From assembly GCA_002698985.1 (NCBI GenBank), contig PAAY01000057.1:1-55409 (forward strand): DNA of 55,409 nt, in the 5' to 3' direction. Shown in pieces: positions 11,924 through 25,164 of this stretch. The notes below the pieces were generated by a model. It was not told the origin of the DNA and made no database searches. It saw only the letters and a list, made by a program, of their open reading frames with translations. Source of the DNA: Saprospirales bacterium. Its GTDB lineage: Bacteria; Bacteroidota; Bacteroidia; Chitinophagales; Saprospiraceae. A program made the translations under genes and the position numbers. Every line of letters begins with the position of its first letter. Position 1 is the stretch's first letter.

Positions 11924-14900
11924 TTACTGATTGATGAAATACTCAATTTGGAACCTGCTATTCAGGTATTGCTCAAAAGTCAACCATGCGGAGATTTCAA
12001 TTTGCATGGCATCTTTCACATTTTGCAGGAAGGTCACATAGTCAATGGCGCCTTCGTGGTAGGCAGTTGCCGCGGCGCTACGTTGTTTTCTGGCCAGGTC
12101 AAGGGCTACAGATTCGTAGTAATGCCAGGAGTTCTGCCATTTGTAGTAGGATTCAAGAGCATTCAAATAGCTGTTTTGTAGTTCCAATTGCGTTTGACGA
12201 AGGTTTTGCTGAGCAATCTGTTGTTCGATCCGGGCAGATTGCAGCAAGCCCTTGTTTTTACGCCTAAACAATGGCACGGTAACCCCAGCCTCATACAGGA
12301 ACAGGCCCCCGACCCCATCAATGCGTTGGGTGCCCAATTGCAGGTTGAATTTTGGCAGGAAAGCGGCTTTAGCAGTCTCAATTCTGCGGTCGGCAACGGT
12401 TAACTCTCGCCAGGCCAGGTCAAGCACCGGGTGCCTAAGCAATGAATCTTTAGCAATGTCCAAAGGGCTTGCCCATTGTCGGGTTGCATCATCACTCACG
12501 GTGAAGACTGAATCACTCACCATCCAGAGATTGAACTGCTGAAGCGCAAGCAGATAATCGCGATAAACCTGTTCTTTTTGGATGGACACCTGCCTGGATT
12601 GATTGGCCGCCGCCAGGTACTCCAACCTTGAGGTTGCTTCTGTTTCATATCTGATTCGGGCTGCTTTTTCAAAGGCGCTAAAAACCGAGTCAAGCTCCTG
12701 GTACAACAGGTACTGTTGCCGTGCGGCATAAAGCTTCCCATAGCTGTTTTTGACCTGGAACTCCAGTTCCAACTCAGAGAGGTTCAGAGCTGCTTCAGCC
12801 AAGGCTACACGGGCTTCTTGCAACTGTAATCGGGGCTTGATACCAAACAAATCAACAGATTGCTGGCGGATGCCCAGCAGGGTATAAACCCCCTGGCCAT
12901 TGCCCAACTCCTCGCCCCCTGTGGAGATGATCGTATTGCCAAAATCCCATGCGGTCTTTTTGAGGGCTTCCTGGTTTTGCACTTCCAGGCGTGCCGCCTT
13001 AATTATTGGATAAACCGTTTTGGCTCGCAGAACAGCCTCTTCCAAGGAAACAGGGATCTGCGCATCCAGGGTTTGGGCCTTTAGATTGCCGTAAGGCAAT
13101 AGAAAGAGCCCACCAGCCAAAAGTAACAGAGACAAAGATTTTGGAACCGGTACTTTCATCCCTGTTCTTTCTACCCATTGATACAATACGGGCAAAACAA
13201 AAAGGGTGAGCAGGGTGGCAGTAATCATTCCACCGATGACCACAGTGGCCAATGGCCGCTGTACTTCAGCACCTGCGGAGGTGGATATAGCCATTGGCAA
13301 AAAGCCAAGTACATCGGTCAGGGCTGTGAGCAAAATGGGCCTGATACGACGGCGGGCTCCCTGCCGGATTCGCTGCCCCAAATCGGTGACACCACTGGCC
13401 TTCAGCTCATTCCAACCGCTGATCAGCACCAAGCCATTCAACACGGCAACGCCAAACAGCACGATGAAACCCACTCCGGCAGATATACTAAAAGGCATGC
13501 CTCGCAGCCACAATGAAAACACACCGCCAATGGCTGCTAATGGGATGGCCACATAAATCATGGCGGTTTGTTTGAAGGATTTCAATGCAAGAAAAATGAG
13601 TAGGAAAATCAGCCCCAGGGCGATGGGTACCACCAGCCGCAAACGCTTGCTGGCACGTTCGAGGTTTTTAAAAGCTCCACCATACCTGATGAAATAACCA
13701 GGAGGAAGTTGAAGCTCCGCATCGAGCTTTTGCTGAATCTCATCAACCAATGATTTTATATCGCGCCCCCTGACATTAATCCCCACGTAAATCCGACGGT
13801 TGGTATTGTCACGACTGATTTGCATAGGGCCAGAGCGGAAGCTGATGTCTGCTACTTCCTTAAGTGGCACCTGTGAGCCATTGGCCAGATTGACGTAAAG
13901 GTTCTTCAGGTTATCAATGCTTTGCCGGTGCTTCTCATCCAGGCGTACCACGAGGTCGAAGCGTTTCTCTCCCTCAAAAATGACCCCTGCTATGCCTCCG
14001 GCAAAGGCCGATTGAATCACCTTGTTCAGGGCGCGGATATTGAGGCCGTATTGGGCCAGCTTGTGTCGGTTGTAGATTACCGTCATTTGAGGCAAGCCGG
14101 TGGTAGCTTCCACGCGCATATCTCCAATGCCCTGTGTGCCGGCAATGATCTTCGACACTTCCTGTGCTTTGGCTGCCAATATTTCAATGTCTTCACCGTA
14201 CAGCTTGATGGCGATGTCTTCCCTTACGCCTTCCAACAGCTCGTTAAAACGCATTTCGATAGGTTGAGTAAATTCGTAATTGACCCCTGGAATTTTCTCC
14301 AGTTTGGCTTTCATTTTTTCAACCAGTTCATCTTTTGTTTCGGCTGAAGTCCATTCTTCCCGGGGAGCCAGAATCACGAAGATGTCAGCAAAGTCAAACG
14401 GCATGGGGTCTGTGGGTACTTCAGCAACTCCTATCCTGCTGACAATTTTTTGAACTTCAGGAAAATTATCTTTTACCGTTTTTTCAATTCTGGTGGTGGT
14501 CTTTATGGTTTCACTCAATGAACTACCGGGCTTCAAAATGGCGTGGAAAGCGATGTCGCCTTCATCCAATTGGGGCACGAACTCACCTCCCATTCGAGAA
14601 AAGGTGAACACTGCTATTGACAAAAGCACAACGGCCAGGGTAAGTACCAAACCTGAGCGCTTCAATGCACCCGCCAGTATAGGTTCATAGATTTTTTCCA
14701 GCCAGGCTACAAAACGATCACCCCAGGACGGCTTGTTGTCACTGACCGTACGGATAAACCACGCTGACATCATGGGCACATAGGTGAGGCAAAGAATCAT
14801 CACCCCCATCATGGCAAACATAAAAGTGAGGGCCATGGGCTTAAACATCTTTCCTTCAACACCTTGTAAAGCCAGAATAGGGATGAACACGATGAGAATA

Positions 14901-16264
14901 ATGAGCTGACCAAAAAAGGCAGCGCTCATCATTTGGCTGGAGGCAGTGGCTGCCACTTCGTTTCTTACCTCTGGAGTTATTTTTTGTTTTTTCAACAGTT
15001 TTTGATGCAGCAGGAAGACAGTACTCTCAACAATAATCACCGCACCATCTACAATAATTCCAAAGTCAATGGCCCCCAGGCTCATCAGGTTTGCCCACAC
15101 GTTGAAAACATTCATCATGATGAATGCAAACAGCAAAGCCAGTGGAATGGTAGAGGCTACAACGATGCCTCCACGCCAGTTGCCAAGCAGAAAAACCAAA
15201 ACAAATATGACAATCAAGGCTCCTTCTATGAGGTTCTTGCTGACTGTGTAAGTAGTCCTGCCAATTAGCTTGCTGCGGTCTAAGAAAGGCTCAATGATGA
15301 TCCCTTCGGGCAATGACTTCTGAATTTGAGCCATGCGTTCTTTTACCCTGACAATCACATCGTTGGAGTTAGCCCCTTTGAGCATCATCACCTGTCCGCC
15401 CACTATTTCACCTACTCCATCCTGGGTAAGTGCCCCGTATCGCACCGCTGTGCCGAACTTCACTTTCGCCACGTCTTTGATGGTGATGGGAATCCCATTG
15501 ATGTTTTTCACCACCATGTCTTCGATGTCTTTCAGGTTGCGGGCAAGCCCTTCTCCCCTGATGAAATTGGCCTGGTGGTTTTTTTCAATGTAGGCACCGC
15601 CAACATTCTGGTTATTGGCTGCAAGCGCATTGTAAATGTCCAAAATGGATAACCCAATGGCTTTCAATTCATCGGGGTCAACGGCAACTTCATATTGTTT
15701 AATGTTGCCACCGATGGCATTGATCTCCACCACGCCGGGCACCATGGCCATTTGCCGGGCCACTATCCAGTCCTGAATGGTGCGAAGGTCAGTAGCCGAG
15801 TACTTGTCCCGGTGGGCCGAATCTACTTTGAGGGTGTATTGGTAAATTTCACCCAATCCGGTACTGATGGGACCCATGAAGGGTTCTCCAAAGCCGGCAG
15901 GTATTTCCTCTTTCACCTCTGTAAGTTTTTCGTCCACCAGTTGCCGGGGCAGGTAAGTCCCCATATCGTCTTCAAAGACAACAGTTACCACTGATAACCC
16001 AAAACGGGAAATGGAGCGCAACTCTACGACACCAGGCAAGTTGGCCATGGCCAACTCAACCGGATAGGTAACAAACTGCTCAATATCTTCTGTGCCAAGG
16101 TTGGGTGCCTGCGTAATGACCTGTACCTGGTTGTTGGTAATATCCGGTACGGCATCAATGGGCACCTTGGTCATGCTCCATATCCCTACCACAATCAGGG
16201 CTATGGTTAGCAGACCAATTATCATTTTGTTCTTGATCGAGAACGTTATTATCTGATCAATCAT
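11924..16264 (-). CDS. CusA/CzcA-family heavy-metal RND pump fused to a TolC-like outer membrane factor
   Basis: A single frame of 1446 residues that combines two usual subunits of a tripartite efflux pump. Residues 1 to about 1035 are an HME-type RND permease, with the signature DFGIIVDGAVIIVE in transmembrane helix 4 and the start MIDQIITFSIKNK. Residues about 1060-1446 are an outer-membrane-factor (CzcC/TolC-like) domain with long amphipathic helices. Between them, about 1025-1045, lies a hydrophobic stretch (KSLSLLLLAGGLFLLP, then NLKAQ) that looks just like a cleavable signal peptide. The start is set at the ATG at 16264, where homology to RND pumps begins; the longer frame adds 16 unrelated residues. 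Fused CzcA-OMF proteins of about 1450 residues are known in Bacteroidota. Neighbours (His-rich adaptor, Fur regulator, P1B-2 ATPase) point to Zn, Cd or Co export. Confidence 0.93.
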   Translation of the reverse strand: MIDQIITFSIKNKMIIGLLTIALIVVGIWSMTKVPIDAVPDITNNQVQVITQAPNLGTEDIEQFVTYPVELAMANLPGVVELRSISRFGLSVVTVVFEDDMGTYLPRQLVDEKLTEVKEEIPAGFGEPFMGPISTGLGEIYQYTLKVDSAHRDKYSATDLRTIQDWIVARQMAMVPGVVEINAIGGNIKQYEVAVDPDELKAIGLSILDIYNALAANNQNVGGAYIEKNHQANFIRGEGLARNLKDIEDMVVKNINGIPITIKDVAKVKFGTAVRYGALTQDGVGEIVGGQVMMLKGANSNDVIVRVKERMAQIQKSLPEGIIIEPFLDRSKLIGRTTYTVSKNLIEGALIVIFVLVFLLGNWRGGIVVASTIPLALLFAFIMMNVFNVWANLMSLGAIDFGIIVDGAVIIVESTVFLLHQKLLKKQKITPEVRNEVAATASSQMMSAAFFGQLIILIVFIPILALQGVEGKMFKPMALTFMFAMMGVMILCLTYVPMMSAWFIRTVSDNKPSWGDRFVAWLEKIYEPILAGALKRSGLVLTLAVVLLSIAVFTFSRMGGEFVPQLDEGDIAFHAILKPGSSLSETIKTTTRIEKTVKDNFPEVQKIVSRIGVAEVPTDPMPFDFADIFVILAPREEWTSAETKDELVEKMKAKLEKIPGVNYEFTQPIEMRFNELLEGVREDIAIKLYGEDIEILAAKAQEVSKIIAGTQGIGDMRVEATTGLPQMTVIYNRHKLAQYGLNIRALNKVIQSAFAGGIAGVIFEGEKRFDLVVRLDEKHRQSIDNLKNLYVNLANGSQVPLKEVADISFRSGPMQISRDNTNRRIYVGINVRGRDIKSLVDEIQQKLDAELQLPPGYFIRYGGAFKNLERASKRLRLVVPIALGLIFLLIFLALKSFKQTAMIYVAIPLAAIGGVFSLWLRGMPFSISAGVGFIVLFGVAVLNGLVLISGWNELKASGVTDLGQRIRQGARRRIRPILLTALTDVLGFLPMAISTSAGAEVQRPLATVVIGGMITATLLTLFVLPVLYQWVERTGMKVPVPKSLSLLLLAGGLFLLPYGNLKAQTLDAQIPVSLEEAVLRAKTVYPIIKAARLEVQNQEALKKTAWDFGNTIISTGGEELGNGQGVYTLLGIRQQSVDLFGIKPRLQLQEARVALAEAALNLSELELEFQVKNSYGKLYAARQQYLLYQELDSVFSAFEKAARIRYETEATSRLEYLAAANQSRQVSIQKEQVYRDYLLALQQFNLWMVSDSVFTVSDDATRQWASPLDIAKDSLLRHPVLDLAWRELTVADRRIETAKAAFLPKFNLQLGTQRIDGVGGLFLYEAGVTVPLFRRKNKGLLQSARIEQQIAQQNLRQTQLELQNSYLNALESYYKWQNSWHYYESVALDLARKQRSAAATAYHEGAIDYVTFLQNVKDAMQIEISAWLTFEQYLNSRFQIEYFINQ

Positions 16265-16360
16265 AGATGAAATTCTTTCTTGATAAATGACAGGAATAAC
16301 CCTCCGGAGCATCCGGAAAGCTGTTTACTGATCCCAACTTGAGATGTGGGCTAGATAGAT

Positions 16361-16837
16361 TTAGAAAGAAATGGAAGGAGGCCCCCGGAGCGGGGTATCA
16401 GCATCGTAAAAAGCACGGATCAGCAGAACAATTACATGGGAAGGAACTGCCAGGAATGCTACATGCCCGGCCAACTGAGCAGCGCCATGTCCTGCTGCTA
16501 TTTGGACAACCTTGACCAGGCGTTTGAAGCTGACTTTGGCTTTCAGTGGAATCATACACTGGTCGAGGTCACATCTGAATGATGAAGCTTTGACCTCACT
16601 GATCAAACAAATGATCAGATCCAGAAAGCCATTGTCGCAATGGCCTTCATGCACCAGGTATTGAGGCAATTCATTTGTATGTTCAATCGGTGAGCGCCCG
16701 GAGTGCTCATGGTGATGATGCGAACCCAATGCCCCTGCCACGGTCGGTTCTTTGCAATTGGGTAAAACACCACTTGCAAACCCAACGGAATAGGTTAGCA
16801 ACAAAAAAATCGCTATGATGCCTCTGGAAATTTTCAT
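16361..16837 (-). CDS. small exported His-containing protein of a metal-efflux operon
   Basis: A 158-residue protein with a signal peptide starting MKISRGIIAIFLLLTYSVGF; the ATG at 16837 is chosen because the signal begins there. After the signal there is an SHHHHEHS cluster, then further His and Cys residues (HEGHCDNG, CDLDQC), a hydrophobic stretch about 115-140, and a C-terminal LRGPPS. Small exported proteins of this look, often with a C-terminal RGPP motif, recur directly before CzcA/CusA genes in Bacteroidota. No biochemical role is known to me. A periplasmic metal sensor or buffer is a guess from the His/Cys residues and the operon position. Confidence 0.7.
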   Translation of the reverse strand: MKISRGIIAIFLLLTYSVGFASGVLPNCKEPTVAGALGSHHHHEHSGRSPIEHTNELPQYLVHEGHCDNGFLDLIICLISEVKASSFRCDLDQCMIPLKAKVSFKRLVKVVQIAAGHGAAQLAGHVAFLAVPSHVIVLLIRAFYDADTPLRGPPSISF

Positions 16838-16883
16838 CAGAGCGCAAAAGTAACCGATAAGATGCTGCAACACAATTGCAAAG

Positions 16884-17297
16884 TCACTTCTTGCAATTGG
16901 CACAGATGCCCTTCAGTACCATATTCATTTCAGTAAGTTCAAAACCGGAGGGCAATTCCACTTTGGGCACCTTGGCTTCGGTTACACAAATCGTTTGTTG
17001 GCAGGTAGTACAGTAAAAATGGACGTGCAAGTCATTAAGTTTGCATTCACAACCATCCTCACATAACGCGTACTTTGACATGCCGGTGCCGTCGTCAATT
17101 CGGTGGATGAGCTTGCTTTTTTCAAAGGTCTTGAGCGTTCGATACAACGTACTCCTGTCTGCTCGCTCAAAGTTGTTCTCCAATTCACTGAGGCTGATAG
17201 CACTGGCACGGTCCATAAGCTGTTGCAACACCAGCATACGCACGGCCGTTGGTTTAACCTTTCTGGAAAGAAGTTTTTGTTCTAATAGTTGGCTCAT
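16884..17297 (-). CDS. Fur-family metal-responsive repressor
   Basis: A 137-residue transcription regulator of the Fur/Zur/PerR family. The start is the ATG at 17297 (MSQLLEQKLLSRKVKPTAVR), where the winged-helix domain begins. The helix-turn-helix covers about 15-80 (SLSELENNFERADRSTLYRTL). The dimerisation half carries the metal sites: a Cys/His stretch CECKLNDLHVHFYC, the first structural zinc pair CTTC, and the second pair CANC near the C-terminus. As the first gene of the efflux operon it most likely senses zinc or a similar metal and controls the genes behind it. This layout is more often filled by ArsR or MerR proteins. Which metal it binds is not readable here. Confidence 0.9.
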   Translation of the reverse strand: MSQLLEQKLLSRKVKPTAVRMLVLQQLMDRASAISLSELENNFERADRSTLYRTLKTFEKSKLIHRIDDGTGMSKYALCEDGCECKLNDLHVHFYCTTCQQTICVTEAKVPKVELPSGFELTEMNMVLKGICANCKK

Positions 17298-17368
17298 GAC
17301 AGTAATTGTACATTGAAGATACTCTGCTGTGAATCTTGCAGATAGCACCCCTCATTCCCGAGGGTTTA

Positions 17369-17436: not shown

Positions 17437-18216
17437 TCAGATGAATATCCATAGCCGCAAGGTCAGGCTTTTCAAAATGATGCGGTCTTCATAGCTGTAG
17501 GTACTCCATTCCCAGCTCCAGGTCCGGAAATAGCGCTGGATGCGGTAGCCAAAATCCAACTCCACAACGGGTCCGCGCCGGGCGGGAAACACCAGCCCCA
17601 CGGAAGGATGTAAAAGCCACGACCCTCGCAACCTTTCGTTCTCATCGCCTCCGGCAACCAGGTTTCTGCCCGGCAGGTTGTAGCCTGCCTGCACCCGCCA
17701 ACTGAGGGGTACGGCGTAGGCACGCCGGGTTGGCTTACCGGACAAGGCCCGGCTGATGAGCCCGCTGAAATCCAACTGCAGGGGAATGAAGCCGTACTCG
17801 TGGGCTTCGTAGCCGATGCCCAACCCGGCCGAGAAAGCCGGTGACCAACGATAACTCCGGGTGGCATACAGGCCAAAGCCCGTCCGGTTGTCTGAATTCC
17901 AGGCACCGCCCCTTTCGGCAATCATGTAGCCAAGCGATAAGCTGGTGTAGAAGCCCCGCTTTTTGATGTTGGTGCCGTCGGCAAAATAATGGCGGTTGCT
18001 GCGCAAGGGTTTTACGAAGTGAACCGCTGTCAAATCCACCAATGCGTGGCTGCCACCGGGCAGGGTCACAGCCAGTTTTTCGGCTGCGGTGGTGTCCAGT
18101 TGGAGGGCACGGAGGTAGCCACCGGCCTTCAGGTAAACACCCATTTCTGTGTTTTGAGATTGCGCAGCGAAGGCAAGAAAAAACAACGGAAGGAACAGGC
18201 ACTGACGAAACTTCAT
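17437..18216 (-). CDS. predicted outer membrane beta-barrel protein
   Basis: A 259-residue exported protein. The start is the ATG at 18216 with signal peptide MKFRQCLFLPLFFLAFAAQS; the frame continues 10 codons upstream without purpose. The rest alternates hydrophobic and polar residues with many aromatic ends (GFYTSLSLGYMIAER, FGLYATRSYRW, AGLGIGYEAHEYGF) and closes with a terminal strand SLTLRLWIFI, all as in an 8- to 12-strand outer-membrane barrel. It is the last gene of the HlyD-VTC-DUF4956-LVIVD unit, 60 bp after the lipoprotein gene. No specific family recognised. Confidence 0.7.
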   Translation of the reverse strand: MKFRQCLFLPLFFLAFAAQSQNTEMGVYLKAGGYLRALQLDTTAAEKLAVTLPGGSHALVDLTAVHFVKPLRSNRHYFADGTNIKKRGFYTSLSLGYMIAERGGAWNSDNRTGFGLYATRSYRWSPAFSAGLGIGYEAHEYGFIPLQLDFSGLISRALSGKPTRRAYAVPLSWRVQAGYNLPGRNLVAGGDENERLRGSWLLHPSVGLVFPARRGPVVELDFGYRIQRYFRTWSWEWSTYSYEDRIILKSLTLRLWIFI

Positions 18217-18276
18217 GACAATGATTTTGAATGCTGCAGCCCGCACAAAACCGGGCTGCAGCGTTTGGGTGCTTGC

Positions 18277-19548
18277 TTATTGGCCTACCGGAATCTTGCT
18301 GATGAGTTCCAGCTTTTGGGGATCGTCGAAGCGGTATTGATAGAAGCCGTCTTCACCGATTACCAGGGCGAGCTTTTCATTTCCCGGAAGGGGAATCACA
18401 TCAAAGGCGTGGAGGCTCTTGTCCTGGTCCAACAGGCGCGGACCAATGAGCATGGGATCTTCGGCATTGAAGCGCTTGAAACCGTAATCGCCCTCGCAGA
18501 GCAGCAGGTCGTTGCCTTTGATGCCGAGGCCGTGGGGGTTCTGCATGGGGTGGGTAATCAGCAATTGAGGTGAAGTGATGTTGGTAATGTCCACCACGTC
18601 CAACTGGTTGTTGAAGCCCTCGCAGGGTGTGCCGCTTCGCAGGGTTACATAAGCCAGGTTCCCCTGAACGTACACAGGATCGCAGGCACGGGCGTGGGCA
18701 AAGGTGGATAACAGTGATGGCTGAGCAGGGTTGCTGTTGTCGAAGATGAACATGCCTGAATTGGAACCGATGAAGAGTTTGTCTTCGTAAGGGATGATGG
18801 TTTCAATGCCCCAGCCGAGCTGCACCTCGTTCACTTGTTCCGGAAGGTAGGGATTGCCCAGGCCAAAAACCTGCAGACGGCTATCGTCAACGATGTACAG
18901 GTACTGGTCAACGATGGTGAAGCGGGCCATGCTGCCGCCAACGCCGGTGCCGCCAGCGCTTCCGGAGGATTCTTCCACCACATCGGCCAGGTCAACAAAC
19001 ACATCCGGGCCGGCACCCCAGAATACACCCCCGCTTTTGTAGAGGGTGCCAAAGGTTTCGCAGTCCATCACCTCTGTCACGGGTGTCTCTTTGTAGTAAA
19101 CTGCCACGCGGTTGTTATCCAGGTCTTCCCACAAGGGCGGAAAAACAGCTTCAGCCCTGCCCATCACCTGGTAGCTGTTCAGGTCGATGGCCAGCAGGTC
19201 GATGTAAGTATTGGCGTACAGGATGCCGTTGCGGATGGCCAGGTCTTCGTTGCCGGGGATGGCGATGAAGGAAACGTTTTGCGGGTTGGCAGGGTCGGAG
19301 TTGTCAACGACGTGGATGCCCTCCCGCCGTTCATTGATAAAAATTTTATCGTCGTAATAGTAGATCTGGCCAGGGTCCTGGAGCGGGCGCGGTGCTTCCA
19401 CCACAGCTGTACCGTTCCGGATTTCGTCGATGGTCTTGTAAACGGGATCCACGCGGATGTAGGAAACCGTTCTCTCGCAGGAATCTTTCAGACAACCGGC
19501 TGTGCCCAAGGCCAGGATAGCCAGGAAAAAGACGGATTGGAGTTTCAT
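18277..19548 (-). CDS. LVIVD-repeat lipoprotein (predicted beta-propeller)
   Basis: A 423-residue predicted lipoprotein. The start is the ATG at 19548 and the signal ends at the lipobox TAGC, giving Cys19 or so. The body has repeated units with the pattern Y-x-Y-V/I-x-D-x-x-x-L-x-V/I-x-D followed by S/N-P-x-x-P (HVVDNSDPANPQNV, MFIFDNSNPAQPSLL, LDVVDITNITSPQL), which is the LVIVD repeat thought to fold as a propeller. It sits on the periplasmic or outer surface of the envelope. It lies 90 bp behind the DUF4956 gene and before the barrel gene, so it is probably co-transcribed. Its function is unknown; binding or scaffolding is likely. Confidence 0.82.
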   Translation of the reverse strand: MKLQSVFFLAILALGTAGCLKDSCERTVSYIRVDPVYKTIDEIRNGTAVVEAPRPLQDPGQIYYYDDKIFINERREGIHVVDNSDPANPQNVSFIAIPGNEDLAIRNGILYANTYIDLLAIDLNSYQVMGRAEAVFPPLWEDLDNNRVAVYYKETPVTEVMDCETFGTLYKSGGVFWGAGPDVFVDLADVVEESSGSAGGTGVGGSMARFTIVDQYLYIVDDSRLQVFGLGNPYLPEQVNEVQLGWGIETIIPYEDKLFIGSNSGMFIFDNSNPAQPSLLSTFAHARACDPVYVQGNLAYVTLRSGTPCEGFNNQLDVVDITNITSPQLLITHPMQNPHGLGIKGNDLLLCEGDYGFKRFNAEDPMLIGPRLLDQDKSLHAFDVIPLPGNEKLALVIGEDGFYQYRFDDPQKLELISKIPVGQ

Positions 19549-19638
19549 AATTGACAATAGTTTTAGGAAAGAAGGTGATTTGAACCTGGTTCACAGGCTC
19601 AGACAGCAGGTGGCCCAAAAGGGTTGGGGAAGGTGGCA

Positions 19639-20328
19639 CTATCCGATGGGAAATCCATTGTCTTCTTCTTCAAAAAAGAGGTTGACCTGGCTCACCTCCG
19701 GCAATTCCCGCAGCGCCCGGATGAATTCGTCCTGTTGGCTTTTGTTCCTCAAACTCAGGTGGTAAAAGGACTCTACCTCGTGGTTGCCGTTGAGTTGCCG
19801 TATGTTGATGAGTTGGATGCGCTTGCAGTAGCTTCGCAAAACTTTCTTAAGGGCCGACTCCGCCTCCGGCGTGCCGGCATGGGTGACCTGCAGCAGGTGC
19901 TTCAGCCGTGCCGGCCGGCCAAAGCCGATGTTGTCAAGTAAAATGATGATCAGGCTGATGAACAGCGTACCGATGAGGGCCACACTGTTCAGCCCCACCC
20001 CCGCCGCCATTCCGATGGTGAGTGCAAAAAAGATAAAAACAATGTCCTGAACATCCCGCACAGCGGTGCGGAACCGGATGATGCTCATGGCGCCAACAAG
20101 ACCAAATGCCCGGGCCAGGTTGTTGCCGATGACGAGAATGACCACCGCCGTGATGAGGCTGAGCAATACCAGTGAACTGACGAACGAAGCAGAATAGCTG
20201 GCTCCCCGGTACGTGAACCGGTACACCAGGGCAATGATGAGCCCGCAGACCAGCGCAACCACCATGTTGGCGGCAAAATCAAAGATGCCGGGGCGGAAGA
20301 TGTCTATTTGTTGCAGTTGTTCGAACAT
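19639..20328 (-). CDS. DUF4956 integral membrane protein
   Basis: A 229-residue inner-membrane protein. About four hydrophobic helices lie at 15-37, 45-68, 92-114 and 116-135, with the family signature around LVGAMSIIRFRTAVRDVQD between helices two and three. A soluble C-terminal part (about 140-229) has an alternating beta/alpha pattern. DUF4956 proteins are commonly encoded beside VTC-domain polyphosphate polymerases, and here the VTC gene ends only 10 bp upstream. A role as membrane partner or channel for the polymer made by the VTC protein is inferred from that pairing. Confidence 0.9.
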   Translation of the reverse strand: MFEQLQQIDIFRPGIFDFAANMVVALVCGLIIALVYRFTYRGASYSASFVSSLVLLSLITAVVILVIGNNLARAFGLVGAMSIIRFRTAVRDVQDIVFIFFALTIGMAAGVGLNSVALIGTLFISLIIILLDNIGFGRPARLKHLLQVTHAGTPEAESALKKVLRSYCKRIQLINIRQLNGNHEVESFYHLSLRNKSQQDEFIRALRELPEVSQVNLFFEEEDNGFPIG

Positions 20329-20338
20329 TGGTCAGTCG

Positions 20339-21112
20339 TCAGCGCATTTTGCCCATTTGCCACCTGCCGGTGGAGAGTTTGTAATCGAGTTCGGAAGCAC
20401 GCCGCAGGGCATCCAGGCACAAGGTGTATTTGGATGCAGGGCCCTTTTTCAAGCCCATTGAAACCACCAGTTGCCGCACCCACCCGGGCAAATAGCGGTT
20501 GAATTTCACCTCCATGATGAAATGCCCACGCATAACCATAACGGGCTGTTTTTCAACAAACAATTCATCGATTCCTGGTGCCCGGACTGCACGCAGGTTT
20601 TTGTCGAAGGTGATCCGCAAGTCGTTCTCAGGGTCAATTTTGAACTGGTAGGGTTCGCGCTCGTAGATCACATTGACCACCGGTTGCAGTTTCCTTGCGA
20701 AGATGTGGTACAGGAATTTCTGCGCATCCTCCAGGTCCGATGCTTTGATGACAGCGCCGTACTGTTCCGGCCGAAAGGGTTGGCCACGCAACAATTGCAA
20801 GGCGAGTTCATAAGGCAGACCCGCTCTGTTTTTGTACAGTGGCTCATCCACTTTCTTCTTGATTTCAAAAAACACCTTGCGCTGGCCCTCACCCTGGTTG
20901 TAGCCGCGAAGCCTGACTTTGTTGCGCCTTTTTACGCCGGCCACCTTCAGTTGGTAGCACTCCAGGTCAGCAGAATCAAAATATATGCTGCGCACCGTGT
21001 ACTCCCCCGTGGAACGCACGTGCGGATCCCTGTGGGCAAATGCCGCAATCCGCACCCGAAGCTCTTCGAGCCTGGCATAAGGAATGATGTACTTGTATTC
21101 GAACCTAAGCAA
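20339..21112 (-). CDS. VTC-domain protein (polyphosphate polymerase family), TTG start
   Basis: A 257-residue soluble protein of the VTC superfamily (CYTH/triphosphate-tunnel fold), whose yeast member Vtc4 makes polyphosphate from ATP. Tunnel residues are visible: FEYKY at the N-terminus, basic KVRLRGY near 87, the acidic-basic strand FFEIKKKV near 105, YEREPY near 151, MEVKFN near 203 and KYTLCLDAL near 230. The length is that of the bare catalytic domain, without an SPX part. No ATG lies between the in-frame upstream stop and FEYKY, so the start must be the TTG at 21112. It is tightly packed between the HlyD-like gene (12 bp) and the DUF4956 gene (10 bp). Whether the product is polyphosphate is not proven by sequence alone. 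Confidence 0.9.
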   Translation of the reverse strand: MLRFEYKYIIPYARLEELRVRIAAFAHRDPHVRSTGEYTVRSIYFDSADLECYQLKVAGVKRRNKVRLRGYNQGEGQRKVFFEIKKKVDEPLYKNRAGLPYELALQLLRGQPFRPEQYGAVIKASDLEDAQKFLYHIFARKLQPVVNVIYEREPYQFKIDPENDLRITFDKNLRAVRAPGIDELFVEKQPVMVMRGHFIMEVKFNRYLPGWVRQLVVSMGLKKGPASKYTLCLDALRRASELDYKLSTGRWQMGKMR

Positions 21113-21124
21113 TGGATGAATGTG

Positions 21125-22174
21125 TTACTGCCACCTGATGGCTCTTCTCAAATATTCGCGTATCGTCACCTTGCCCAACTGTAGTTCGCATCGCATCGGA
21201 ACGCTCCACAACCCTGGTGCACCAGCCTTTTCCGGAACGGCATGCACAATGACACAGGTTTCACCACCCAGAAGCTGTGGCGTCGGATCTATGGACTCCA
21301 GCCGGGCCGGTATCACCAGCCCCGTCTCCCGTATTTTGACCTTGACCTGCTGCCCTGGGGTCAAAAAGTTCTGATCCCTCATTTTGACAGGAATCTGCAG
21401 GGTCATCACCGAAGTATCCCGGATCACAAATGCATCGCCTTCCGGTGTGCTTACAAAAGATGCTTTGCCGGAAATCGGGCTGGCCAGTTCATACCCGGCT
21501 TTTTTCCTTCGGAGAACATCGAGCTCGGCTTTCAATGCACCGATGCGGGCATTGGCCGCAGCGATGGTTTCCGGTTTTTCGCCCGTTCGGGCAACCTGGA
21601 TGGCTTCTTCGGCAATTTTCACATTGGACAAGGCTTCGTTCAGTGCCGTTTCGGCTTGTTCAAATTCCGCCTGCGATACAGCCTCCTTTTCGAACAATCC
21701 TTTTACCCTTCGGAAATTTTTCTGCTGCAGGTCCAAAGTCTGACGGGCCAGCTCCAGTTCCGCTTCGAGTTGGGTAATCAGCTCGGGTTTTTGCCCGGTG
21801 GCCAGGGCCGCTTTGTTGCGTTCTTCCACCAGGAGTTGTGACTCAACCTGAATCAGGCGCTGCTCCAGTTCAATGGATGCCACGGTGATCACTTTTTTCC
21901 CTTCGGCAACGTAAGTCGGATGCTGTTCATCGAGGTGGTAGCGAATGTTCACCTGATCGCCCCGCTCAAAGTTCAACTGGACGGCGTTCAGCAAGAGGCC
22001 GTTTTGCATGTCCAGCAAGTTGGCTGTGATGATGCCGTTGGCATCCTTTGCCACCTTCCACTCCTTGCCGGGCACTGCCACTACCACACTCTCGATGTTG
22101 TAGGGCACGCGCACAGGGGTCATTACAATGACCGCCAATAGCAGCAGCAATATGATTCCGGAGTATTGCTTCAA
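21125..22174 (-). CDS. HlyD-like membrane fusion protein, TTG start
   Basis: A 349-residue periplasmic adaptor. An uncleaved N-terminal anchor (about 5-19, IILLLLLAVIVM) is followed by a first beta/lipoyl-like half, a long coiled coil (about 105-225, rich in E, Q, A and L), the second lipoyl half (YELASPISGKASFV) and a beta-barrel domain. An in-frame TAA three codons upstream and no ATG before the anchor make TTG at 22174 the likely start. HlyD-type adaptors normally serve an ABC or RND pump, but no pump or TolC gene follows. It is the first gene of the VTC/DUF4956 unit, so the membrane partner may be the DUF4956 protein; that is inference. Confidence 0.85.
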   Translation of the reverse strand: MKQYSGIILLLLLAVIVMTPVRVPYNIESVVVAVPGKEWKVAKDANGIITANLLDMQNGLLLNAVQLNFERGDQVNIRYHLDEQHPTYVAEGKKVITVASIELEQRLIQVESQLLVEERNKAALATGQKPELITQLEAELELARQTLDLQQKNFRRVKGLFEKEAVSQAEFEQAETALNEALSNVKIAEEAIQVARTGEKPETIAAANARIGALKAELDVLRRKKAGYELASPISGKASFVSTPEGDAFVIRDTSVMTLQIPVKMRDQNFLTPGQQVKVKIRETGLVIPARLESIDPTPQLLGGETCVIVHAVPEKAGAPGLWSVPMRCELQLGKVTIREYLRRAIRWQ

Positions 22175-22349
22175 GAGGATTTGTTAATGTCGCTTTCGGT
22201 TGCAGCCAGGGCATCCGGTCAGGAAGAGCGCCAAATTAGAAAAATTTTGAACGGCATTTGGGCGGTTACTGGCCAAACCACCAACCCAACAGATTGAAGC
22301 CACGAAAATGCCTTAGCTTAGCCTAACAACCCAATAAAACTTGCCCACC

Positions 22350-23585
22350 ATGAAGATTGTCTGCCTGAACTTGTTGACACTCCTGCTGCTACCAATCGTT
22401 GCCAAAGGCCAGCCGGGCTGCACCGACCCCCAGGCCAGCAACTACAACCCCAACGCCACGCAAAATGATGGTTCTTGCGTGTACGACCCCACTTTTTACA
22501 CACCCACCTTGATTGCACAACTGCCCGCAGCAATTGACGAGGCCTCCGGCCTTGCTTTTTTCGACGGCAGACTGATTACGCATGAGGATGGCGGCAACGA
22601 CGAAAAACTCTACCAACTGGATACTACCACCGGTGCTGTGCTGACCGAACTCACCATCCCGCTGGCCGACAACGTGGACTGGGAGGACCTGGCCGAGAGC
22701 CCTGACTATCTGTTCATCGGTGACTTTGGCAACAACGCAGGCAACCGCACCGACCTGAAAATTTACCGGCTGAACAAGAATGACCTGTTGGCAGGCTCCG
22801 CAGTTCCTGAAGTAATTGAATTCAGTTTCTCTGACCAAACGGATTTCACCCCCGCACAGAACGCCAACAACTACGATTGTGAAGCATTCCTCTGGCTCAA
22901 TGACAGCCTGCACCTGTTCTCCAAAAACTGGCTGGACTTCAAAACCCGGCACTACGTGTTGGCGGCTACCCCCGGCACCCACATTGCGCAGCTAAGAGAC
23001 AGCCTGAACGTGCAGGGGCAAATCACCGCAGCCGATGTTACAGCCGATGGAAGAATAGCTTTGCTCGGATACAATGTCAGCACCTCCGAGGCCTTTCTGT
23101 GGCTGCTTTTCGATTTTGAAGGCAACCAGGTCTTCTCCGGCAACAAACGCAAAATTTCATTGGGGACAGCCCTCACCATGAGCCAACCGGAAGGCCTGGC
23201 TTTTTCCTACTCGGGAACGGCATTTATCGCATCGGAAAAATTTTCCCTGTTACCTCAAAAGTTGTTCAAAATGAACATTGATGAATGGACCTTGCCCGTG
23301 TCTGTTATTGAAGATCCGGGCCCTAAAATGCCTTTCAGCCTTGTTTTTCCCAATCCATTTGCAGGAAGGTGTACCCTCTATTTTGCCGAAGGGTCAAAAG
23401 ATGTCAAAAGAGTTGTTCTGGCTGATGAGTCCGGTAAAGTGATTTACGAAGAAGAGACACCCCATCCTGTTTACTACCACACAATTGATGTAACAAACAA
23501 GCAGCTACCAACTGGCCCTTATTTCCTTTTCCTGTACGATTCCAAAAACTATCAGGTAGGGGCTCACAAGTTAATCTTGCGCTGA
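22350..23585 (+). CDS. secreted beta-propeller-like protein with MopE-type motif, T9SS substrate
   Basis: A 411-residue exported protein. The start is the ATG at 22350 (signal MKIVCLNLLTLLLLPIVAKG); a TTG nine bases upstream is less likely. Directly after the signal comes the short Ca-binding-looking motif GCTDPQASNYNPNA...DGSC (about 19-43), common in Bacteroidota surface proteins. The middle (about 50-325) has propeller-like strands with repeated Asp/Gly turns (EDLAESPDYLFIGDFGNNAG, QPEGLAFSYSGTAFIASEKF), similar to SdiA-regulated or phytase-like propellers. The C-terminus from LVFPNPFAGR is a T9SS sorting domain. It is transcribed alone, divergent from the VTC unit. Function unknown. Confidence 0.85.
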   Translation: MKIVCLNLLTLLLLPIVAKGQPGCTDPQASNYNPNATQNDGSCVYDPTFYTPTLIAQLPAAIDEASGLAFFDGRLITHEDGGNDEKLYQLDTTTGAVLTELTIPLADNVDWEDLAESPDYLFIGDFGNNAGNRTDLKIYRLNKNDLLAGSAVPEVIEFSFSDQTDFTPAQNANNYDCEAFLWLNDSLHLFSKNWLDFKTRHYVLAATPGTHIAQLRDSLNVQGQITAADVTADGRIALLGYNVSTSEAFLWLLFDFEGNQVFSGNKRKISLGTALTMSQPEGLAFSYSGTAFIASEKFSLLPQKLFKMNIDEWTLPVSVIEDPGPKMPFSLVFPNPFAGRCTLYFAEGSKDVKRVVLADESGKVIYEEETPHPVYYHTIDVTNKQLPTGPYFLFLYDSKNYQVGAHKLILR

Positions 23586-23643: not shown

Positions 23644-25164
23644 TCAATGGAATAAAATCTTTTCAGTCACTATTCCATCTTCAAAAATGACTTTGGCCAC
23701 GTAAGTACCCTTGGCAAGGCTGTGCCTTTGCATGGTAAAATCATTGGCCTTCACATTCGTATGCACTTTCACAAGACGTCCGTTGAGGTCGTACACGTAA
23801 ATGTGCTGAATGGGGTATTCTGCATTTGTTTCAAAGCGGATGTAAGCCGTGGCCGGATTTGGAGAAACCTTCAAACCCACGGTGCCGACATCCAGGATTT
23901 CCTCTGCGGCAGAGTACATTGACAAGTCACAACCCAAGCCGAGAGCGAGGCACGCCCTTGGTGCAAAGTAGTTCATGATGGTATCGATGTACATGCGTGC
24001 CCTGACGGAGTCACAAAGTTCTGTTGCATTCGGGTTGTCCCATGCCCAGATGTCCCAGGGACTGGAATCGTTGGGATCTCCTGTGAGGAATGGGTACAGG
24101 CCCTGCCAGCCATCGTTGTGGGCATTGGCAGCCGCTGTATAAGGATCGGTAAAATCAGCATTGGCAAAGACATCGTTGTTGCCGTACAGATTGGCTAGCC
24201 TCACAGCCAGGTAACTACCCTGAACTTCCACTACCGGGAAGTTTACTACCGGTACCAATACGGTTCCCTCCACATAGGGTGCAAAGGGGTCATCAGGCGT
24301 GTGGAATGAAATGAGTGGTGGCTGCCCCGGATCAATCCAGGAAGTGTCGCCCAATGCACCGCCGAGGTTCACTGAAAGCTGGAAATCAGAATCATAACCG
24401 GGCCAGTTTGGATAGCAAAGGGTATCACCGGGTGTGAAGATCGGATAGCCCGGCGGCACCTGGCCAACTGAAGTACCCCAAACGTTACCGTTCACACCTT
24501 CAATAATCATGGGTACCGGACCAGGCAGTAGGAATTTCGGAATGAGGGTTTTGTTGTAATCGTCGAGCGCTGCAGTATTGAGGCTGATGTAGCCACCCGT
24601 TCCCTGACCAAAGAGCACGATTTTGTTCGGATCAATGCCCCAGGGGTTTCCATCTTCTGCAGCGGTCTTTTTGAAATAGCGGATGCAGGTTCTGGCGTCC
24701 TGCACACCGCGATAAGCTGCGTTGATGAGGAACCAGCGACGAATCAGCTCTTCCGGGTCGAGTGGGTTCCAGCCGAGGCGGTAATCCACTGATGCTGCCA
24801 CATAGCCCATCTTGGCCAGCCGCGTGCAGATTTCCACACACACCGAGTCACCTTTGTGACCCCCGGTAATACCATTTGCCGGGAAAGGAATAAAGCTACC
24901 CGTGTGGAAATACAGCACAACCGGACGATCTGTTTCGGTATCACCTGCCGGCTGATAAACATCCATTAAAAGTGGATGAGCCAGTGGGTGCGCATCGTTG
25001 GTCGTGTCTGTGTCCAAAAGGTTGATGATGGAAGCATTAAAACCGTAAGGCACATTGGTAGTAACCTGTACATCGGTAAATACCTCCGACACATAACGCT
25101 GGCCCATAGCAGTGGTGCAAATAGCCAGGAGCGCAATGAGAATGAGGGTGTTGAGTTTTTTCAT
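23644..25164 (-). CDS. secreted alpha/beta-hydrolase (carboxylesterase-like) lacking the nucleophile serine, T9SS substrate
   Basis: A 506-residue exported protein with signal peptide MKKLNTLILIALLAICTTAMG. Residues about 60-330 resemble the carboxylesterase/BD-FAE branch of alpha/beta-hydrolases: oxyanion strand PVVLYFHTGSFIPF, then VAASVDYRLGW, a charged helix DARTCIRYFKKTA and the nucleophile elbow. That elbow reads FGQGTGGY where the family has FGxSxGG, so Gly188 replaces the catalytic Ser. The C-terminal 80 residues from VSPNPATAY are a T9SS sorting domain. It follows the TonB-dependent receptor gene by 61 bp and is probably co-transcribed, which suggests binding or processing of something the receptor imports. 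It may be a pseudo-enzyme that binds a ligand. Confidence 0.85.
   Translation of the reverse strand: MKKLNTLILIALLAICTTAMGQRYVSEVFTDVQVTTNVPYGFNASIINLLDTDTTNDAHPLAHPLLMDVYQPAGDTETDRPVVLYFHTGSFIPFPANGITGGHKGDSVCVEICTRLAKMGYVAASVDYRLGWNPLDPEELIRRWFLINAAYRGVQDARTCIRYFKKTAAEDGNPWGIDPNKIVLFGQGTGGYISLNTAALDDYNKTLIPKFLLPGPVPMIIEGVNGNVWGTSVGQVPPGYPIFTPGDTLCYPNWPGYDSDFQLSVNLGGALGDTSWIDPGQPPLISFHTPDDPFAPYVEGTVLVPVVNFPVVEVQGSYLAVRLANLYGNNDVFANADFTDPYTAAANAHNDGWQGLYPFLTGDPNDSSPWDIWAWDNPNATELCDSVRARMYIDTIMNYFAPRACLALGLGCDLSMYSAAEEILDVGTVGLKVSPNPATAYIRFETNAEYPIQHIYVYDLNGRLVKVHTNVKANDFTMQRHSLAKGTYVAKVIFEDGIVTEKILFH

Follow-up and report, generated by a model that had tools for sequence, protein, structure and literature searches.

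In the yeast VTC complex (Vtc1/Vtc3/Vtc4), polyphosphate synthesis is presented in PMC9911596 as coupled to passage through the membrane, along a channel described there as lined by basic residues. In Gram-positive bacteria, genes for CotH, a polyphosphate polymerase and a DUF4956 protein accompany Pel clusters, with the polymerase gene next to DUF4956 and the DUF4956-type protein SIR_1592 described with an MgtC-like transmembrane part and an ACT domain (PMC7112168, PMC12345266); PMC12345266 states that no three-gene CotH/polymerase/DUF4956 synteny was seen other than at Pel loci. DUF4956-DUF2490 genes of the BT3498-99 type in Bacteroides give DUF4956 an outer-envelope partner (PMC10434189). 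The MacAB-TolC and EmrAB-TolC tripartite pumps combine an adaptor with an outer-membrane efflux protein (OEP). In synthase-dependent exopolysaccharide secretion, of which alginate (Alg8-Alg44-AlgE) is an example, export is driven by the polymerase and involves a HlyD-like periplasmic part. We know of no settled mechanism by which polyphosphate reaches the bacterial cell surface or the space outside it. Here we describe a locus on a 55,409-nucleotide contig of a Saprospirales bacterium (assembly GCA_002698985.1, contig PAAY01000057.1; this whole stretch is the window) in which a VTC polymerase gene stands between genes for a HlyD-like adaptor and a DUF4956 membrane protein. We lean slightly towards reading this HlyD-VTC-DUF4956 core as a polymerase-coupled exporter, whose cargo would be polyphosphate or a similar polyanion.

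The locus resembles each of these systems in part. The VTC/TTM domain with equivalents of K200, R264, R266 and K281 is that of the yeast complex, but the window VTC protein has no SPX domain, DUF4956 is the membrane part, and an adaptor and, in some loci, an OEP are added. As in the Gram-positive Pel clusters, VTC adjoins DUF4956 and CotH genes lie near some of the loci, whereas the HlyD adaptor is an addition and CotH is mostly missing; the loci, those with CotH included, were not searched for pel genes. The adaptor fold, and the OEP of some loci, are shared with the MacAB-TolC and EmrAB-TolC pumps, but the window unit contains no ABC, MFS or RND pump. Unlike in alginate secretion, the product would be polyphosphate, and the enzyme and channel families differ. 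In the BT3498-99 type a DUF2490 barrel replaces HlyD (PMC10434189), as it does in a HlyD-less DUF4956 clade found here. Among open-licence full texts we found no paper linking a polyphosphate polymerase or VTC protein with HlyD, or with a TolC-type tripartite system and its periplasmic adaptor, a search that other gene names would escape; DUF4956 is mentioned by name in three papers.

The window unit lies on the minus strand. The HlyD-like adaptor (21125-22174) is the first gene of the core and is followed by the VTC-domain protein of polyphosphate polymerase type (20339-21112), the DUF4956 inner-membrane protein (19639-20328), an LVIVD-repeat lipoprotein (18277-19548) and an outer-membrane barrel-like protein (17437-18216); the last two coordinates are those of ATG starts, the mechanical ORFs starting 9 bp (LVIVD) and 30 bp (barrel) earlier. 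The ORFs with ATG starts bear out the original prediction of five co-directional genes in this order, with gaps of 12, 10, 90 and 60 bp. It had also described the unit as free of an ABC or RND pump, and no such gene was found between 17437 and 22174 in the ORF list or by Pfam. An ORF resembling an RND pump by eye lies at 11924-16312, 1.1 kb outside the five genes, and a pump partner for the adaptor may be encoded elsewhere in the genome. A scan for sigma-70 promoters and terminators returned 6 and 9, against 3.1 and 7.2 expected, which is near chance; sigma-70-type promoters as scanned are not the promoters of Bacteroidota. The unit is composed of two modules, the HlyD-VTC-DUF4956 core and an LVIVD-barrel pair.

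The core is strongly conserved as a gene organization, so that the pairing of adaptor and polymerase in a pump-less unit is a part of the original prediction that stood. An alignment of the window DUF4956 with two relatives was used as query; 310 contig stretches were found with a gene for a relative, of which the top 80 served as named loci; these were picked by DUF4956 similarity alone and hence lean towards the window type. ORFs came from a simple script, and gene order and fold do not establish function. HlyD, VTC and DUF4956 lie on one strand in this order in 75 of the 80 named loci when all ORFs are used and in 74 with a stricter, greedy caller, which misses the unit of L120 and for which L134 is counted though its adaptor and VTC lie in short pieces; with that caller the median gaps within the triad are about 3 and 9 bp. 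Two of the five exceptions end at contig ends (L093, L115), one has VTC-DUF4956 only (L122) and two have DUF4956 only (L123, L125). VTC adjoins DUF4956 in 77 of the 80. The record titles name Bacteroidota lineages, Chlorobiota, Melioribacteraceae, Ignavibacteriae, Kryptonia, Caldithrix, Neomarinimicrobiota and Latescibacterota. Chance placement of the adaptor gene next to VTC is rejected by the 75 loci that keep its position; a plasmid search with the adaptor as query gave 3 records.

A phylum sample of 296 genomes was drawn separately and searched with PF16316, which gave 81 places in 74 genomes, all of which were classed. Two loci are common to both samples by DUF4956 identity (L138 = L202, L147 = L032), so the samples are partly dependent. 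A same-strand HlyD-like neighbor lies within 3.5 kb of DUF4956 in 52 of the 81, in five gene orders: HlyD-VTC-DUF4956 (24 loci), VTC-DUF4956-HlyD (9), DUF4956-HlyD-OEP-like (17, which are not independent cases because many are close relatives of one family, f44), DUF4956-HlyD-OEP-VTC (1) and HlyD-DUF4956-OEP (1). The 29 loci without it are VTC-DUF4956 (18), DUF4956-(CotH)-VTC (2) and others (9). Among the 24, L216 has its adaptor in two pieces, L217 has it inside an overlong VTC frame, and the DUF4956 of L211 is only 109 aa long. In the other gene orders, HlyD exceeds a Pfam curated cut-off in several members; for L217, L226 and L228 the HlyD label comes from our own models, Pfam giving no HlyD match.

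A tree built from 91 DUF4956 rows, of which 80 come from the 81 phylum-sample loci and 11 from elsewhere (midpoint root, long branches flagged), is divided by a branch with 100/100 support. One side holds the VTC-DUF4956 loci without HlyD together with 8 DUF4956-only loci, and the other holds every HlyD-bearing order, the DUF4956-CotH-VTC type and one DUF4956-only locus. The HlyD-bearing orders mostly occupy separate clades and are all on one side of the tree; therefore the link between HlyD and DUF4956 outlived changes in gene order. A DUF2490-type barrel (two seeds, DUF2490 by Pfam) directly follows in 10 of the 18 VTC-DUF4956 loci of the phylum sample, the class without HlyD, versus 0 of 51 adaptor-bearing loci, which suggests that this barrel and the HlyD adaptor are alternative outer-envelope partners of DUF4956. 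Among 40 order-level loci (L031-L070), VTC-DUF4956-DUF2490-type barrel occurs in 21 (e.g. L049, L035), and a small lipoprotein-like gene lies upstream in 19.

The VTC protein (257 aa) matches PF09359 (E 8.6e-41) and the Vtc4 structure 3g3q (E 1.1e-10); VTC is the only domain that Pfam finds in it at E 1, with no SPX. Its K7, R67, R69 and K85 align to K200, R264, R266 and K281 of Vtc4 and are invariant in 56 sequences. We take Vtc4 K200 and K281 to be catalytic residues. R264 and R266 are catalytic too and were mutated in PMC9911596. The PDB alignment ends before Vtc4 E426, for which the invariant E201, judged by motif, is a likely counterpart. By its sequence, the protein is a putative polyphosphate-making type of enzyme, and polyphosphate would be its product.

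The adaptor has no HlyD match in Pfam even at E 1. It matches NCBIfam PRK03598, ‘secretion protein HlyD’, at E 6e-18 and also the CzcB and EmrA models, in each case under the curated cut-off, and the NCBIfam HlyD model matches 52 of 57 aligned adaptors, including that of the window, at E ≤1e-5. An AF2 model (pLDDT 88.1) finds MacA in MacAB-TolC as its best match in the PDB (E 7.2e-14), followed by EmrA, and the predicted fold has the HlyD/MFP layout of N-terminal anchor, helical hairpin, lipoyl and beta-barrel domains. An N-terminal hydrophobic stretch is present in 56 of the 57. The window adaptor carries RxxxLxxxxxxS at the hairpin tip; of the 57 adaptors, 43 have RxxxL and 31 have the complete RxxxLxxxxxxS/T, which we take to be the TolC-docking motif.

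DUF4956 (PF16316, E 1.1e-18) is built of five long N-terminal helices, read as transmembrane, and a C-terminal ACT/ferredoxin-like domain, and appears MgtC-like in layout. Foldseek with DUF4956 gave no match below E 0.001. Conserved arginines lie in the modelled helices and, together with the basic lining of the yeast channel, are counted in favor of a channel role, making DUF4956 a candidate membrane channel.

When a polymerase, an arginine-bearing membrane protein and a MacA/EmrA-type adaptor stay together with no pump in the unit, the simplest account is export driven by synthesis. Cytosolic VTC would polymerize the gamma-phosphate of ATP into polyphosphate or a close polyanion, and the nascent chain would be threaded through an oligomer of DUF4956, which would supply the membrane channel that in yeast is part of the Vtc subunits. 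In the periplasm, the HlyD/MacA-like adaptor would form a duct that docks on a TolC-family channel; some lineages have the gene for this channel in the operon, and the others presumably have it at another place in the genome. Polymerization would be the driving force in place of an ABC, RND or MFS pump. A TolC-type channel adjoins the core in L031 and L130 and is present in other gene orders in L231 and L228. Pfam OEP (PF02321) is found beside HlyD and DUF4956 in L031 and L231, both with VTC, and in L228 without it; in L130 the OEP was recognized by our own L031-based profile. The most complete version seen is in L231 (4417-11308), where CotH, DUF4956, HlyD, OEP, VTC and a secreted-looking protein form one run. 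The polyanion-export idea of the original prediction thus holds up, and its outer-membrane part is more likely a TolC-type channel than the window barrel.

Several observations weigh against such an exporter. No TolC-family OEP is found in the window unit, and most HlyD-VTC-DUF4956 loci have none. The OEP label of the largest OEP-like group, proteins of 412 aa, comes from our own seed chosen by eye and is weak: Pfam OEP matches 2 of 10 (best 5e-5), the hhalign probability is 9.7 and a PDB search gave no OEP match. The helical half of DUF4956 has no structural match among those tested. Of 19 searched genomes with DUF4956-HlyD-OEP(-like) units, 18 have no VTC anywhere, the 19th being G206, which carries L231. 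In Streptococcus intermedius, deletion of the DUF4956-type gene led to less aggregation and a changed Pel level, while for deletion of the polyphosphate polymerase PMC12345266 reports no such change; these results also fit a regulatory role of DUF4956.

The VTC-less genomes favor an alternative that we judge unlikely yet worth serious weight, namely that DUF4956-HlyD(-OEP) exports another cargo, such as a glycopolymer or a small anion, and that VTC is an accessory phosphate enzyme which individual lineages recruited or lost. Their units have the order DUF4956-HlyD-OEP-like (L230, L232, L234, L236, L261-L264, L266, L268-L271, L273-L275, L278) or HlyD-DUF4956-OEP (L228), and all 18 genomes whose units have no VTC alongside have none anywhere; therefore DUF4956-HlyD can work without VTC, and the DUF4956-HlyD-OEP-like units are a possible pump-less tripartite exporter. 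PPK1 is present in 18 of 18, a count for which no base rate was taken. Another cargo is also suggested by the position of Gram-positive DUF4956/VTC/CotH genes beside Pel exopolysaccharide genes (PMC7112168), by the Pel level altered on deletion of the DUF4956-type gene (PMC12345266), and by a nucleotidyltransferase-like gene (by eye) after the core in 10 Bacteroidales-type named loci and a glycosyltransferase-like gene before it in the 2 Kryptonia loci. Beyond these lineage-bound cases, however, the clusters of same-strand neighbors contain no shared sugar-polymer gene; one of them (cluster 0, single-linkage) is partly joined through T9SS tails. The adjacency of VTC and DUF4956 in the named loci and the retention of the polymerase residues also count against this alternative.

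Alternatively, the unit could store or regulate polyphosphate in the cytosol or periplasm, with the adaptor as a scaffold or sensor and the outer membrane not crossed. The scarcity of OEP genes beside the core fits this, and DUF4956, through its ACT-type domain and a layout resembling MgtC, hints at regulation. However, an OEP joins the unit in several lineages, the hairpin-tip residues presumed to dock on TolC recur across the adaptors, and PPK1, present in the window genome, already serves cytosolic polyphosphate, making this reading rather improbable. Still less probable, and of low likelihood in our view, is that secreted CotH kinases use exported polyphosphate as their phosphate donor in the ATP-free space outside the cell. 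CotH-domain genes (domain-only counts, within 6 kb of DUF4956, either strand) lie near 20 of the 80 named loci, 7 of the 24 phylum-sample HlyD-VTC-DUF4956 loci and 6 of the 18 loci without HlyD; several of these neighbors carry T9SS tails, and the 4.83 Mb of the window genome contain 5 CotH genes. Against this, all 5 are on contigs other than that of the window unit, near which there is none, and most core loci have no CotH nearby. We know of no case of CotH using polyphosphate. DUF4956, CotH-like and VTC genes occur in this order in Bacteroidota in L037, L040 (where the CotH Pfam match is just under the cut-off), L050, L066, L259 and L260, although PMC12345266 saw such a synteny at Pel loci only.

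The five-gene envelope-spanning machine of the original prediction, with LVIVD lipoprotein and barrel as members, is favored by the tight, co-directional packing of the genes in the window and by L071, which repeats their order, but is contradicted by the comparative data and is very improbable. In a scan of 83 loci and then 36 more, the window and L071 are the only ones in which LVIVD and barrel adjoin the core; L071 has a DUF4956 with 95% identity to that of the window, separated from LVIVD by a gap of about 350 bp, and neither gene stands beside the core in L201-L236. Of 149 genomes in the order, 89, its own included, have relatives of the LVIVD protein (PF08309, E 7.3e-7), and a close relative adjoins VTC in the window only, as judged by eye against the VTC places in these genomes; in G042 a distant relative (26% identical) lies about 12 kb from VTC. 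Outside the window the barrel has 21 relatives, and at 15 of them an LVIVD relative is no more than 1.5 kb away. Both genes were thus rejected as core parts, being found apart from the core, an outcome that the original prediction had itself named as refuting it, and paired with each other. The pair is often divergent in the order. The ‘barrel’ label is mostly by look, because its OMP_b-brl match in Pfam is sub-threshold (E 0.18).

Beyond the unit, a divergent gene on the plus strand (22341-23585) encodes a protein judged propeller-like by eye, which has a T9SS sorting-tail match below threshold (Por_Secre_tail, E 5.3e-5) and is probably accessory; a propeller-like protein lies near 7 of the 80 named and 2 of the 24 phylum-sample core loci, one of them in both, and also near L031. 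The RND-like ORF mentioned above is 1462 aa long; by eye it resembles a CzcA-type RND pump whose C-terminus carries a TolC-like part. A Fur-family regulator (Pfam) lies close to it, within 11924-17348. ARAGORN calls a tRNA-Gly of 97 bases at 24616-24712, antisense to an esterase-like ORF (23644-25164); the tRNA call may be false.

Taken more broadly, the data tentatively point, somewhat short of probability, to a type of HlyD/TolC exporter with a VTC engine and an MgtC-like DUF4956 channel, in which synthesis would push the cargo across the whole envelope, and whose DUF4956-HlyD-OEP chassis would carry another cargo in VTC-less genomes. The conserved polymerase-membrane-adaptor operon suggests a role for DUF4956 that is open to a direct gene-removal test. 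If true, this would add a polymerization-driven member to the tripartite envelope exporters.

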